DNA of 64,000 bases from Acidobacteriota bacterium (GTDB taxonomy: Bacteria; Acidobacteriota; UBA890; WLXD01), in the NCBI GenBank assembly GCA_012103255.1, contig WLXD01000004.1, positions 462,460 to 526,459 of the forward strand, written 5' to 3'. The position numbers and the translations under genes are program-made. Under the pieces are notes generated by a model that had not been told where the DNA came from, did not search any database, and saw nothing but the letters and a program-made list of their open reading frames with translations. Shown one piece after another: positions 29,736 through 52,789 of the stretch; within the stretch, counting starts at the first letter, position 1, and the number at the start of each line of letters is the position of its first letter.

Positions 29736-32435
29736 ATGACTCTCACGAACTCGCCCTCCTCCCCCACCGCGCGTCGACTTCCCGTCGCGTTGCGGCGAGT
29801 CCTGTCGGTCGGAGCTTTCTGGGTGCCCCGATCGCGGCGTGGCGCCTGGCGACGGGAATGGGAAGCGGAGCTGTTCTTTGCGGCACGTAAGGGTGATACG
29901 GCGCGAAACAAGAAACTTTGGCGTCGAGCGCTCTGGTCTCAGCTCGACGCGATGTGGATTTTCCAGGAGGAACTGACGATGATCCGACTCCTTGCAGATA
30001 TCCGGCTTGCCGTGCGCGGCCTGCAGCGCTCGGCCACGTTCACGGTGGTGGCGGTGCTCACCCTCGCCCTCGGGATCGGTGCGACCACGGCGATATTCAG
30101 CGTGGTCAACGCGGTGCTAATCCAACCGTTGCCCTATCCGGATGCTGAAGAACTGCTGTCTGTGAACTTCGAGGCCCCGGGGATGGGCTACCCGTTCGTG
30201 CCTTTCTCCGACGGCGCATTCCTGTTCGTCCGCGATCGGCAGCAGAGCCTGGCGGCACTCGCGATGTACAACACGCACAGCGTGAATCTGGTGGCCGACG
30301 GTGAGCCGATCCGGGTGGCAGGTGCCAACGTCACGCCGTCGCTATTCGACGTGCTGCAGATACCGGCCGCGATGGGCCGGACGTTCACCAGTGAGGAAGG
30401 AACACCCGGGGCGGCGCCCGTAGCGCTCATCGCCCACGAATTATGGCTCGAGCGCTACGGTGGCGACTCCGCCATCCTTGGTCAGGTGGTGGACATGGAC
30501 GGCGTGATGCGACAGATCGTGGGCGTGATGCCCCCGGGGTTTACCTTCCCCGGAACGAACACGCGGATCTGGAAGCCGTTCGAGTTGGATGAGACGAGCT
30601 TCTCGATGGGATCGTTCAGCCACCCCGGTGTCGGACGCATGCGACCGGGTACCGACGCCGCGACGGTGGAGTCGGACATCGAGGCTGTGATGGTCCGAAT
30701 GTTCGAAGAGTACGCCGACGCCTTTCCGCCGAACTTCGCCGAGCAGGCCGGATTTGCGCCACGCGTCGTGGACCTCAAGGAACTGGCGGTTGGCGACATC
30801 CGCCAGGCGTTGTTCGTCGTGCTAGGCACGGTGAGCTTGGTTCTGCTGATCGCGTGCGCCAACGTCGGCAACCTGTTTCTTGTGCGTGCCGAGATGCGAC
30901 AACGCGAGGTCACGCTGCGTGCCGCGCTGGGCGCCGGTCGCACAGACATAGCCCGGTTCTTCCTCGCCGAGAGCCTGATTCTGGCCATCACTGGCGGCGT
31001 CCTCGGAGTGGTATTGGCTTTTCTCGCGGTGCGCGCGTTCACCACACTGGCGCCGGTCGCGCTCCCGCGGTTGACCGAAATCAGCATCGACGCGACGGTC
31101 CTGCTGTTTACGCTCGCGGTCTCGCTGGCTGCCGGGATCGCTTTTGGCGCCATTCCGCTCCTGCGCCGTCAGCTACGCGACCTCGCCTCGTCGCTGCGCG
31201 AAGGCGGACGCTCGGTCACCGTGTCGCAGGGCCCCTTCAGCCTCCGCAACCTCCTGGTGGTGTCACAGATCGCGCTAGCGCTCGTGCTGCTCGTCGGCTC
31301 CGGACTCATGATGCGGAGCTTCCAGGCTCTGCGCGAGGTCAATCCCGGCTTCGCAGCCGATGGGGTGCTGACGGCGTCCATCGCCCTTCCCAGGTCCGAG
31401 TATCCGGACGCAGAAGAACGTCTGGCGCTCTGGGTCTCGCTCCGCGACCGGGTGGCCGGCCTGCCGGGCGTCACGTCGGCGGGAGTGGTCGACAATCTGC
31501 CCATGGGCACGAGCCGCAGCGCCGGCTCGTTCACCATCGAGGGCCTCGTCCCGGAGGAAGGTGCTCTCCCGCCCTCGGCGGAGAAGAAGAGTGTGACGGC
31601 GGGCTACTTCGAGACTCTCCAGATTCCCCTGCTACAGGGCAGGTACCTGGACGACGGCGACGGTGTGGATCGCTTCCGGGCCGCCGTGGTTTCGGCAAAC
31701 CTCGCAGCGCACTGGTGGCCGACAGCAGGCGCTATCGGGAAACGCATCAGCGAGAACGGTGGCGCTGATGAACCCACGTGGTACGAGATCGTCGGCGTGG
31801 TCGGCAATGTGCACAACGAAACGCTCGAAGATCCGGCCGAGCACACGATCTACTACCCGATCATGGCCGGGGCGGCCGAGGCTCCCGACGTGTCCTGGAA
31901 CAACACCCTGATCATCCGCACCGAAGGCTCACCGACAGGGCTGCTCCCTGGGGTCCGCGGTGTAGTCAGCGAACTCGACGCCCGCCTCCCGATCGCGCGG
32001 TCACGGCCGCTGGCGGAGCACCTCGCCGACACGATGGCCCGTACCTCCTTCACTCTCGTGATGCTAGGCATCGCTGCCTCGGTCGCGCTGTTCCTGGGAG
32101 CGATCGGGATCTACGGGGTGATCTCTTACGTGGTGAGTCAGCGCACTTCCGAGATCGGTGTCCGCATCGCACTCGGCGCCTCACGCGGCTCGGTGCAGAA
32201 CATGGTCGTACGACGAGGAATGCTGCTGGCAAGCGTCGGAATCGTCGTAGGTCTCGTCGGGGCCTTCGCCGCCACGACGGCACTCGGGTCGCTGCTCTAC
32301 GAAGTGGATGCGCTCGACCCGACAACCTATGCGGCCGTTGCCGTGGCCCTGGCGTTGACGGCGTTGCTTGCCAGCTGGATTCCGGCGATGCGGGCTTCGG
32401 GAGTGGATCCGATTGTGGCGCTGCGTTCGGACTAG
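29736..32435 (+). CDS. ADOP-type duplicated ABC permease
   Basis: 899-residue permease of the Acidobacterial duplicated orphan permease group. Residues 1-80 are a basic cytoplasmic leader (AWRREWEAELFFAARKG). The MacB-type unit begins with MIRLLADIRLAVRGLQRSATFTVVAVLTLALGIGATTAIFSVVNAVLIQPLPYP, followed by a periplasmic domain and FtsX block (AEMRQREVTLRAALGAGRTDIARFFLAES). A second copy begins near NLLVVSQIALALVLLVGSGLMMRSF and ends with QRTSEIGVRIALGASRGSVQ and a final helix. No ATPase gene is adjacent, as is usual for this orphan class. The substrate is unknown. It is the intact paralogue of the interrupted gene at 16568. Confidence 0.88.
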   Translation: MTLTNSPSSPTARRLPVALRRVLSVGAFWVPRSRRGAWRREWEAELFFAARKGDTARNKKLWRRALWSQLDAMWIFQEELTMIRLLADIRLAVRGLQRSATFTVVAVLTLALGIGATTAIFSVVNAVLIQPLPYPDAEELLSVNFEAPGMGYPFVPFSDGAFLFVRDRQQSLAALAMYNTHSVNLVADGEPIRVAGANVTPSLFDVLQIPAAMGRTFTSEEGTPGAAPVALIAHELWLERYGGDSAILGQVVDMDGVMRQIVGVMPPGFTFPGTNTRIWKPFELDETSFSMGSFSHPGVGRMRPGTDAATVESDIEAVMVRMFEEYADAFPPNFAEQAGFAPRVVDLKELAVGDIRQALFVVLGTVSLVLLIACANVGNLFLVRAEMRQREVTLRAALGAGRTDIARFFLAESLILAITGGVLGVVLAFLAVRAFTTLAPVALPRLTEISIDATVLLFTLAVSLAAGIAFGAIPLLRRQLRDLASSLREGGRSVTVSQGPFSLRNLLVVSQIALALVLLVGSGLMMRSFQALREVNPGFAADGVLTASIALPRSEYPDAEERLALWVSLRDRVAGLPGVTSAGVVDNLPMGTSRSAGSFTIEGLVPEEGALPPSAEKKSVTAGYFETLQIPLLQGRYLDDGDGVDRFRAAVVSANLAAHWWPTAGAIGKRISENGGADEPTWYEIVGVVGNVHNETLEDPAEHTIYYPIMAGAAEAPDVSWNNTLIIRTEGSPTGLLPGVRGVVSELDARLPIARSRPLAEHLADTMARTSFTLVMLGIAASVALFLGAIGIYGVISYVVSQRTSEIGVRIALGASRGSVQNMVVRRGMLLASVGIVVGLVGAFAATTALGSLLYEVDALDPTTYAAVAVALALTALLASWIPAMRASGVDPIVALRSD

Positions 32436-32448
32436 AGGGTGGAGAGAG

Positions 32449-32581
32449 GAGCGGGGGACGGGGTTCGACGACGAACTGTCATCGGGTGCAGTTGATTCCA
32501 CGCCGTGCAGCCGCGCCATCTCCTTCGCTCACCCCACCGCACTGCCAGCGAGTGTTCTCTGTCGAACCCCGTCCCCCGCTC
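32449..32581 (+). repeat. Palindrome-armed element R1 (plus orientation)
   Basis: A 133-bp element bounded by a perfect 21-bp inverted repeat: 32449-32469 (containing GCGGGGGACGGGGTTCGAC) and 32561-32581. The 91-base interior carries three blocks shared with the other three copies: TGTCATCG at 32477-32484, GCCGTGCAGCCGCGC at 32502-32516 and TGCCAGCGAGT at 32543-32553. It begins 13 bases after the stop of the ADOP permease and reads in the same direction as that gene. There is no open frame of note and no transposase. Confidence 0.85.
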
Positions 32582-32675
32582 TCGCGAAACCGTAGTTCCG
32601 GCGCGCGCGCATCGCGGGCTCGCGCGCCTCGGTCTCGCAACGACGCTAGAAGCGCCTGACGTAGGAGTTGCCCGG

Positions 32676-32812
32676 GGGGAGTCCGTCAGGGGTCGACAAG
32701 CGAGGACTCGCTGGCACGGCAACGAGGAGGGCTAGGCTCCCGCGCGGCTGCACGGCGATCGAACAACCCCGAAGCGACGACACCGAGCGGCTCGACCCCT
32801 GATGGACTCCCC
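32676..32812 (-). repeat. Palindrome-armed element R2 (minus orientation)
   Basis: A 137-bp element inverted relative to R1. Arms 32676-32696 and 32792-32812 pair at 20 of 21 positions, and the single exception is a G-T wobble. On the minus strand the core blocks are TGTCGTCG (32782-32775), GCCGTGCAGCCGCGC (32756-32742) and TGCCAGCGAGT (32716-32706). The arm sequence (AGTCCGTCAGGGG inside) is unlike that of R1. In minus-strand direction it begins 20 bases after the stop of the PQQ/EF-hand gene, so it is in the sense orientation for that gene. The 94 bases between R1 and R2 contain GC-rich alternating sequence and nothing I can name. Confidence 0.85.
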
Positions 32813-32832
32813 GCCCTCGCTCTCCCCAACGT

Positions 32833-34278
32833 TCAGTCGGTCAAGCCGAACGCATACAGATGATTCCGCGTCCGCAAATAGATCCGATCATCCGCAATCG
32901 CCGGCGTCGCGTGACAAAGGTCGTCGAGGTCCGACACGCTCACCGGCGCAAGGCCACCATCGGGCTCGAGCACGGAGAACATGCAGAGCTCGGAGAGCAT
33001 GAAGATCTTGCCGTCGGCTGCGATCGGCGACGCATAGTACTGATCGATCGCGCCCTTGAGGCGGCCCTGTGCGATCACCTCGCCTGTGGCCGGATCGAAC
33101 GAGGTAACGATGCCGCCGTCGTTCACCATGTAGAGAATGTCGTTGTAGATCAGCGGCGACGGAAGCTGGGGCACTGCCTTGTTGTACTCCCAGATCAGGT
33201 TCTCTTCGCTCATGTCGCCGGAACCGCCGAGACGAATGGCCAGCATGCCGTTGCGACTCTCGAGAGCGGCGCGCAGGTACGCCCATTCGCGCTCGTTCAG
33301 ATTGCCGTCGCCCTCGTAGTCGGCCAAACCGAACCACTGCGTTGCCCGGGACTGCGGCATTTCTTCCTGGCTGATCAGACCGTCACCGTTGCTATCGGCG
33401 TCGGGCATGAGCTCGTCGAACTCAGGCAGGAATACCTGGTTGCCCGGTTGATTCATTGGCGAGCCGTAGCCGTTCACAAAGGCAACGCCATCGTGGATCA
33501 CCGGCGTCGACTTCATCTCGAATGACAACCCGCTGACCCACCAGAGCTTCTCGCCGGTGAAGGGGTCGTAGGCATCGAGCAGGAACGATCCGGGGACCAA
33601 CAGTTGTTGCTCGCCCTCTGGGGACACCCAGAGGATCGGTGTCGAATGTCCGCTATGAGCCTCGGGCCGCGCAACACGCCACACTTCGTCACCCGTGGCG
33701 CGGTCGTAGGCTGCGATAAACGACTCGACTTCCTGGTCGGCTACGAGGATCACGAGATCATCCACGATCACCGGGGAAGCCCCCATGCCGTAGATGTTGG
33801 TGAACGGGCCCATGGCGACGTCCCAGCGCTCTTCGCCATCGAGGTCGTAGGACAACAGGCCGTAATCGTGGAAGAACACGTAGAGTTCGTTGTCGGCCAC
33901 GACTGCGCTGGCCGCAGCCGGGTGGCTACGAAAGTCCACTGATTCCTGGCGCGGCCTGGGCGAGGTCTGGCGCCAGAGAATCTCACCGGTTGTCCGATCC
34001 AGAGCGATCGTCTCGAGCGCTTCGCCTTCGAGGGCGGTAACGAAGACGCGATCGTCGGCGATCACAGGTGAGGAAAAGCCGGACGGCAGGGCCGTCTTCC
34101 ACACAACGTTGGTATCGGGGCCGAACTCCGTGGGCAGATTACCGGCCTCCACCACGCCGGATCCGTTCGGGCCGCGGAATCGCTTCCAATCGTCCTCGGG
34201 TGCGGTACCCAATGCGTCTGCAACGCCGGCTACAAGGATCGCGACCAGGAACACACCAGAGAGGGCACGCTTCGTCAT
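32833..34278 (-). CDS. Exported PQQ-like beta-propeller protein with EF-hand insert
   Basis: 481-residue protein with a signal sequence (about 1-23). The mature part has PQQ-type propeller repeats: WKRFRGPNGSGV, NVVWKTALPSGFSSPVIADDRVFVTALEG, ETIALDRTTGEILWRQ, FIAAYDRATGDEVWRVAR, LDAYDPFTGEKLWWVSG and TSFDPATGEVIAQGRLKGAIDQYYASPIAADGKIFMLSE. Near residues 290-330 two calcium-binding EF-hand-like loops interrupt the blades, DADSNGDGLISQEE and DYEGDGNLNEREW. This composite is frequent in planctomycetal and acidobacterial secreted proteins. Whether it binds PQQ or acts as a scaffold is unknown. Confidence 0.85.
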   Translation of the reverse strand: MTKRALSGVFLVAILVAGVADALGTAPEDDWKRFRGPNGSGVVEAGNLPTEFGPDTNVVWKTALPSGFSSPVIADDRVFVTALEGEALETIALDRTTGEILWRQTSPRPRQESVDFRSHPAAASAVVADNELYVFFHDYGLLSYDLDGEERWDVAMGPFTNIYGMGASPVIVDDLVILVADQEVESFIAAYDRATGDEVWRVARPEAHSGHSTPILWVSPEGEQQLLVPGSFLLDAYDPFTGEKLWWVSGLSFEMKSTPVIHDGVAFVNGYGSPMNQPGNQVFLPEFDELMPDADSNGDGLISQEEMPQSRATQWFGLADYEGDGNLNEREWAYLRAALESRNGMLAIRLGGSGDMSEENLIWEYNKAVPQLPSPLIYNDILYMVNDGGIVTSFDPATGEVIAQGRLKGAIDQYYASPIAADGKIFMLSELCMFSVLEPDGGLAPVSVSDLDDLCHATPAIADDRIYLRTRNHLYAFGLTD

Positions 34279-52018: not shown

Positions 52019-52068
52019 GGGCGAGACCCGTCTTTTCCAAATCCCTGTCAGATTTGAGGAGCGCTCCT

Positions 52069-52725
52069 ATGCGCAAGTACCTTCCGGCACTGCTTCTGCT
52101 CGTTCTCGTGGTATCGATTCCTTTCGAAGCCGAGGCACAGCGCAGCCGCCGCAATTCCGTCGAGGTCACTCCGTTCGTCGGCTACCGCTTCAGCAACACG
52201 CTGACGGCCGACGTGAACCTGGATGGCGTCAACGTCAGCGAGCAGGTCAAGCTCAAGAACGGCGTGAGCTACGGCTTCATCGTCGATGTGCCCCTGACCG
52301 ACTACATCGGCATCGAAGCGCTGTACACCCGCCGCAGCGCGGACATCGAAGTCACCGGCCTGATGCCCGCCCACACGGTGGGCCAGGGCGACGCCACCTA
52401 CATTCACGGCGGCGCCAAATTCACCCTCAACCCCTACAGTCGCGGCGCCAAGTGGTTCCTCGCGGCAACGATGGGTGTGGGCCAGGTCGGCACCGATGTC
52501 CCGGACGTCGACAGTCAGTCGAAATTCAGCTTCGGGTTCGGTGCTGGCGCGACCATCCCGCTGAGCGACTCGATCGGTATCCGCACCGAGTTCCGTGGTT
52601 TCTCGACCAAGACGGATCTCACCAGCCTCGGCTGGATCTGCGGCTACTACACCTGCAGCCTCGTTCAGGGCAACCAGTACTTCTGGGAAGGTGAACTGCG
52701 GGCAGGAATCGAGTTCGGCTTCTAA
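52069..52725 (+). CDS. Small outer-membrane beta-barrel protein
   Basis: 218-residue protein with a signal peptide (residues 1-23, LLLLVLVVSIPFEAEA before QRSRR). The mature chain is an alternating-pattern beta-barrel, about eight strands, as in OmpA/OprF-like or DUF-type outer-membrane proteins: VEVTPFVGYRFSNTLTAD, YGFIVDVPLTDYIGIEALYTRRSA, YIHGGAKFTLNPYSRGAKWFLAATMGVGQ, FSFGFGAGATIPLSDSIGIRTEFRGFS. It ends in YFWEGELRAGIEFGF with a terminal phenylalanine for BAM. GAGGAG precedes the ATG at 52069 by six bases, favouring it over the TTG at 52054. A strong terminator follows at 52745. Confidence 0.85.
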   Translation: MRKYLPALLLLVLVVSIPFEAEAQRSRRNSVEVTPFVGYRFSNTLTADVNLDGVNVSEQVKLKNGVSYGFIVDVPLTDYIGIEALYTRRSADIEVTGLMPAHTVGQGDATYIHGGAKFTLNPYSRGAKWFLAATMGVGQVGTDVPDVDSQSKFSFGFGAGATIPLSDSIGIRTEFRGFSTKTDLTSLGWICGYYTCSLVQGNQYFWEGELRAGIEFGF

Positions 52726-52744: not shown

Positions 52745-52777
52745 AAGGCCGCGGCGGGCAACCGTCGCGGCCTTTTT
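52745..52777 (+). terminator. Rho-independent terminator of the barrel gene
   Basis: AAGGCCGCGGCGG pairs with CCGTCGCGGCC around a four-base loop (58-61), giving an eleven-pair GC-rich stem and then TTTTT at 52773-52777. It lies 20 bases after the barrel stop. The palindrome-armed element R3 begins 13 bases further on, so R3 is unlikely to be needed as a terminator for this gene. Confidence 0.85.
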
Positions 52778-52789
52778 GTTTGGGAGAGC

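Follow-up and report, generated by a model that had tools for sequence, protein, structure and literature searches.

Within the window, a 64-kb stretch of the genome G000, four copies of one palindrome-armed element (R1 to R4) form two inverted pairs, which lie 20 kb apart and are both situated between convergent genes (Table 1). R1 starts 13 nt past the stop codon of a MacB/FtsX (ADOP-type) permease gene, and R2 begins 20 nt past that of a PQQ/BamB-like gene. In the second pair, R3 is located ~21 nt past the T-run of the intrinsic terminator of an OMP gene, and R4 lies 7 nt past the stop codon of a SpoIIE-phosphatase gene. An earlier note on this stretch had described R1 and R2 as inverted copies of one element, with three spaced interior blocks, self-complementary enclosing arms of 21 bp and almost complete occupation of a 397-base gap. 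This description was confirmed: the gap extends from 32436 to 32832 (397 bases), the arms are present, and the blocks start at 32477, 32502 and 32543 in R1 (distances 25 and 41); in R2, read along the minus strand, they start at 32782, 32756 and 32716 (distances 26 and 40).

Table 1. Positions of the elements, their parts and their upstream genes in the 64-kb window (CM, covariance model)
Feature	Position	Strand	Remarks
R1 upstream gene, ABC permease MacB_PCD + FtsX	29736..32435	+	Domain matches
R1	32449..32581	+	21-bp arms, 0 mismatches; CM 119.6 bits
R1 arms	32449-32469 / 32561-32581	+	21 bp, perfect
R1 conserved core	32477..32553	+	TGTCATCG ... GCCGTGCAGCCGCGC ... TGCCAGCGAGT
R1/R2 spacer	32582..32675	.	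94 bp; most simply gained along with R1 and R2 (empty site in G002)
R2	32676..32812	-	21-bp arms, 1 mismatch; CM 132.1 bits
R2 arms	32676-32696 / 32792-32812	-	21 bp, 1 mismatch
R2 conserved core	32706..32782	-	Minus-strand core
R2 upstream gene, PQQ_2/BamB-like beta-propeller	32833..34278	-	Domain matches
R3 upstream gene, OMP beta-barrel	52054..52725	+	Domain matches
OMP-gene intrinsic terminator hairpin	52745..52774	+	Between OMP gene and R3
R3	52783..52933	+	29-nt arms, 90%; CM 142.7 bits
R4	53062..53201	-	25-bp perfect arms; CM 136.1 bits
R4 upstream gene, SpoIIE-type phosphatase	53209..54594	-	Domain matches

A scan based on structure only (arms ≥18 bp, loop of 40 to 220) returned four hairpins in the 64 kb, which were exactly R1–R4, and none in five shuffled windows. 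When R3 was used as a blastn query against the genome, the other three copies were recovered at E-values from 6e-17 to 1e-6; weak matches of R3 in other genomes (e.g. paired ones in G003 C172), and one in G000 C9, were attributed to chance, being coding-like sequence without arms. We compared G000 with two genomes of the same genus, G001 (Acidobacteriota MAG OFTM137) and G002 (MAG OFTM26), and with G003, which belongs to the same family. A covariance model built from R1–R4 identified a fifth copy in G000 and six copies in the two same-genus genomes. A second model, built from eleven copies, identified 8 copies in G000, 9 in G001 and 12 in G002 (one of the latter partial, at a contig end); these numbers are lower bounds because the search filters can lose weak copies. 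The earlier note had made the reality of the family depend on recurrence of the blocks elsewhere, and this condition did not refute the family: further copies were found in G000 and in both same-genus MAGs. The counts for placement, P1 cells and motifs given below rest on the 28 full copies from these three genomes.

With the covariance model, G003 and four genomes from its order gave no copy. Of 396 genomes in the phylum, only the three same-genus ones match, and the other 393 contain no credible copy. The sole other match in the phylum (G213) was rejected as a chance match, since it lies within a coding frame and its outer helix is broken. A pattern scan of 84,980 GTDB genomes revealed no organism with the element beyond OFTM26 and OFTM137: among 57 pattern matches, 49 had no covariance-model support and the remaining ones belonged to these two MAGs. 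No copy was found in IMG/VR viral contigs, phage records or plasmid records, and a limited literature search yielded no description of such a hairpin family. Relaxed-threshold matches to Rfam 15 were mainly to microRNA-type hairpin models, together with edge-of-range sRNAs, and were not retained. The family is a newly seen one, and was found in a single genus of uncultured Acidobacteriota only.

The element comprises ~130–150 bp and is composed of an outer helix (P1), a second, covarying helix of about 5 bp inside it (P2), and a conserved core of ~85 nt, in which stretches such as CGCGTC.TGGCC and TGC.GGCGA are kept. P1 has 19 modelled base pairs and reaches 34 bp in single copies; all 19 pairs show two-sided changes, and 95% are paired, with wobble almost absent. 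In the whole model, 24 out of 24 pairs covary, each with two-sided changes in some copies; 93.3% of the cells are paired, and the covariation score was 0.827, compared with 0.208 for shuffled and at most 0.189 for slid alignments. For copies less than 25 kb apart, identity was on average 0.58 in the arms and 0.76 in the core; for copies in different genomes, the values were 0.44 and 0.59, and the core value for more distant copies of one genome was 0.64. Because nearby copies are the most alike, spread or conversion of copies appears to be local. At duplicated OMP genes, a 2-bp insertion in one arm is matched in the opposite arm, and after this duplication the cores are 97% identical and the genes only 83%, which speaks for constraint on the core. 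The proposal that a conserved interior is combined with arms private to each copy was thus upheld in part: the interior is kept and the arms vary from copy to copy, but the arms constitute one covarying helix, and they are only partly private because their inner part (GGGGTCG/CGACCCC) is largely common to R1–R4, which represent one subfamily confined to their 20 kb.

A CACCGAG-like motif recurs downstream of P1 in 19 of the 28 copies, and the unit therefore extends beyond the helix on this side; the same kind of motif ends a degenerate second half-copy at L164. A conserved fold within the core beyond P2 was considered and is not supported (consensus energy –1.8 on the sense strand, z –2.5; –1.3 on the reverse strand, z –1.2).

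Among the P1 cells of the full copies, 501 were Watson-Crick pairs, 15 were wobble-type and 12 were other mismatches; on the sense strand, the wobble-type cells comprised 2 G-U and 13 A-C or C-A combinations. This near-absence of G-U is more DNA-like than RNA-like. An RNA helix that undergoes compensatory change would usually show an excess of wobble pairs; the lack of it here would fit either DNA-level correction between the arms or a requirement that both strands can fold. With respect to the functional strand, P1 and the P2 junction contradict each other. The reverse strand was considered as the functional one on account of the A-C excess in P1, but this reading was not adopted: the 13 to 2 ratio shrinks to 8 versus 1 distinct events (P = 0.04), and it is contradicted by columns 28 and 104 (of 131 kept), which pair in 28/28 copies when the sense strand is read and in only half of the copies when the reverse strand is read.

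All 28 full copies are located just 3΄ of a gene end and in the orientation of that gene. A simple gene caller placed 25 of them behind a same-strand gene, and the remaining three were resolved by hand: one (L091:10959) follows tRNA-Glu, one (L102) comes after the end of a visible ORF, and one (L103) follows the terminator common to the OMP paralogues L089/L100. The upstream genes are unrelated and include ssb (by sequence), polA, carB, rplQ, TerC, MacB/FtsX permeases, an NtrC-type regulator, OMPs and a tRNA. In 19 copies the element lies 12–47 nt past the stop codon with no intervening T-run, and in the other nine, one of which is behind a tRNA gene, it lies 21–40 nt past a T-run. The sequence TTTT did not appear within 30 nt after P1 in any of the 28 copies, and therefore the element is not an intrinsic terminator. 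The inverted pairing seen in the window is secondary, and the majority of copies are unpaired; as a rule, an occupied gene end carries a single copy that points in the direction of the gene, and inverted pairs thus result where convergent genes each have their own 3΄ copy. At one locus of G001 (L091:10845-12911, C79), a tRNA-Glu gene is followed by an element, a 276-aa gene, a tRNA-like 3΄ fragment with a T-run and another element, so that the combination of a tRNA end and an element recurs here in an island-like manner.

We further compared orthologous sites. The genes that flank R1/R2 are 2 nt apart in G002, and the element is absent from this site in G003; the simplest reading is therefore that the G000 lineage acquired R1, R2 and the spacer between them. 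At the empty site, with only 2 nt between the stop codons, no target duplication is recognizable. The ssb gene is followed by an element in G001 and G002, and by none in G000 and G003; in G000 an intrinsic terminator occupies its place. Similarly, polA has an element in G001 and none in G000. At the NtrC/OMP pair, G000 and G001 both carry elements, whose arms differ for the most part, whereas in G002 the OMP gene has no copy of its own and a PadR-permease unit stands at the place that NtrC has in G001. This unit (L096:7698-11097, G002 C34) consists of a PadR regulator and a MacB/FtsX permease. The two elements that frame it have similar arms and the same direction, and the contig end cuts the outer one. 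Extra genes are also present between ssb and rnpB in G002. Truncated remnants were found at L164 and at L172:9440-9480 (G001 C237), the latter being a lone left arm directly after a stop codon. As a separate observation, the last 20 nt of rnpB form a perfect inverted duplication around an unrelated 71-nt loop in G002 (L088:6221-6331, C12); it is absent in G000 and G003 and is possibly a fresh palindrome made from the gene end.

An integron-like system of gene cassettes, with the elements as its recombination sites, would agree with the framed PadR-permease unit, with the extra genes beside ssb and with the constant orientation in which a hairpin follows the 3΄ end of a gene. We consider this explanation very improbable, because the motif GTTRRRY is missing from the 3΄ half of 28/28 copies and RYYYAAC is missing in 27/28, the host genes are core genes (polA, carB, rplQ), and the orientations are mixed within clusters. 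It is also clearly unlikely that the element is a vertically inherited structured RNA in the 3΄ UTR of the upstream gene, such as an mRNA stabilizer or an RNase III processing site: the strong presence/absence variation among close relatives, the nine copies behind T-runs, the one behind a tRNA gene and the scarcity of G-U in P1 argue against it, although the long duplex, the 19 copies close behind a stop codon without a T-run and the occupation of the NtrC/OMP pair in two genomes are in its favor.

We propose that the family is a genus-restricted dispersed hairpin that spreads to the ends of transcription units and serves there as an anti-read-through or 3΄-end module, a reading in which both function and mobility are inferred and to which we give a probability of roughly 45%. 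That the helix covaries suggests that the form recognized is a folded single strand, and the conserved core argues for a specific partner; the element may thus be recognized via its core, either in read-through or 3΄ UTR RNA or in extruded DNA, and its arms would need only to pair, their sequence being free. The strict placement points either to transcription-unit ends as targets or to selection that favors a role at these ends. The module would block or process read-through transcripts and would be most useful between convergent genes, and it would spread as a non-autonomous element through some mobility machinery. Quasipalindrome correction is known from E. coli, and arm complementarity might partly be kept by such arm-to-arm copying at the DNA level. 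Several observations count against this proposal: most transcripts of the nine genes with a T-run before the element would not contain it, no copy has TTTT close behind P1, G-U is nearly absent from P1, the strand signals of P1 and the P2 junction disagree, and no mobility enzyme was found.

These same nine copies, which lie behind existing terminators, would be explained if the element were purely selfish, i.e. a non-autonomous mobile repeat whose enzyme reads the folded core and inserts it beside transcript ends without any host function. The gain at orthologous sites, the functionally unrelated host genes (tRNA included), the truncated remnants and the confinement to one genus also agree with this explanation, which we regard as possible, if short of probable. 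However, the perfect orientation bias would need a target-sensing mechanism, the Y1 transposase is absent from the four genomes, RVT_1 is found in G000 only and not in G001 or G002, and the empty R1/R2 site shows no recognizable target duplication. Returning to the proposed 3΄-end module, a more specific form of it appears somewhat doubtful, namely that the family represents a class of mobile element that is aimed at transcription-unit ends, is recognized as a folded strand via its core and then serves as a 3΄-end or anti-read-through module. If recognition proceeds only via the core of the folded strand, the long arms would therefore be free to become site-unique.

The stems of bacterial hairpin repeats are normally kept, and such repeats are often regarded as passive debris. 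The present family reverses this plan, with free arms and a fixed core, and follows a strict placement rule: the 3΄ end of any gene, tRNA genes included, on the same strand. It thus offers a concrete case for asking how repeats find transcript ends, whether gene-end modules spread in a transposon-like manner, and whether palindromes stay perfect because one arm is copied onto the other.

Compared with known systems, the element resembles intrinsic terminators in being a GC-rich hairpin past a stop codon, and at ssb it occupies the same place as the G000 terminator; unlike them, it lacks a T-run within 30 nt in 28/28 copies and carries a conserved 85-nt core in its loop. It differs from MITEs of DDE transposases, as no conserved terminal inverted repeats were found (arm identity 0.58/0.44). 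The attC sites of integrons are imperfect palindromes that follow a gene at its 3΄ side, always in one orientation, with arms that are free in sequence but paired, and the element shares these features; in contrast to attC, it has no R΄ consensus (R΄ GTTRRRY in 0/28 copies; R΄΄ RYYYAAC in 1/28), and it sits behind core genes.

Insertion behind terminator hairpins, with a single orientation, is also the habit of group IIC introns, whereas the element is only 130 bp long, contains neither a reverse transcriptase nor intron domains and has no Rfam match at the gathering threshold. The reverse transcriptase domain RVT_1 is present in G000 only and absent from G001 and G002, although these two genomes together have 21 copies; within the completeness of the assemblies, this disfavors an RT-driven form. 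Three related UG4-group reverse transcriptases are encoded in G000 C1 (L182, L183 and L184; PADLOC RT_UG4, E about 1e-117). All three lie close to fragments of tRNA 3΄ ends, and one is ~0.8 kb from an element copy. Their surroundings suggest tRNA-linked islands, found in G000 only, and these enzymes were set aside as candidates on that ground.

REP sequences are 20–40 bp long and usually exceed 100 copies (PMC3733652, PMC2817692). The element is similar to REP, BIME and REPIN sequences with their RAYTs in being an extragenic palindrome that occurs partly in inverted pairs (PMC3733652, PMC2817692, PMC3116915). It differs from REP/BIME in its length of ~130 bp and its 8–12 copies, and is thus not a short high-copy palindrome. 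The Y1 (HUH) REP-associated transposase (PF01797) was found in none of the four genomes, whose assemblies are 71–95% complete, and was detected in control genomes. Within this completeness, its absence disfavors RAYT-mediated mobility of the element.

The arms of ERIC are conserved terminal repeats. A passage on the ‘erosion of their TIRs’ agrees with this (PMC2267715), and that survey also gives ERIC and YPAL as stem-loop families with models of 140 and 168 positions (Cozzuto et al. 2008); many intergenic hairpin families are listed in systematic surveys. ERIC/IRU and the stem-loop sequence families resemble the element in their length of ~127–170 bp and in being intergenic, dispersed and formed by a single long hairpin (PMC2267715); like ERIC/IRU, a ~127-bp imperfect palindrome, the element is intergenic and dispersed. 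It differs in its fixed core, changing arms, fixed orientation to gene ends and low copy number (8–12), and relative to ERIC as described, its arms covary instead of being conserved in sequence. The claim that its plan is unlike that of any known family holds insofar as no family of Rfam 15 matches at the gathering threshold, but must be qualified, since the element is near in kind to ERIC and the stem-loop sequence families. The family belongs to the broad kind of dispersed hairpin repeats, and is set apart within it by its free arms, its fixed core, its orientation and its placement at gene ends.
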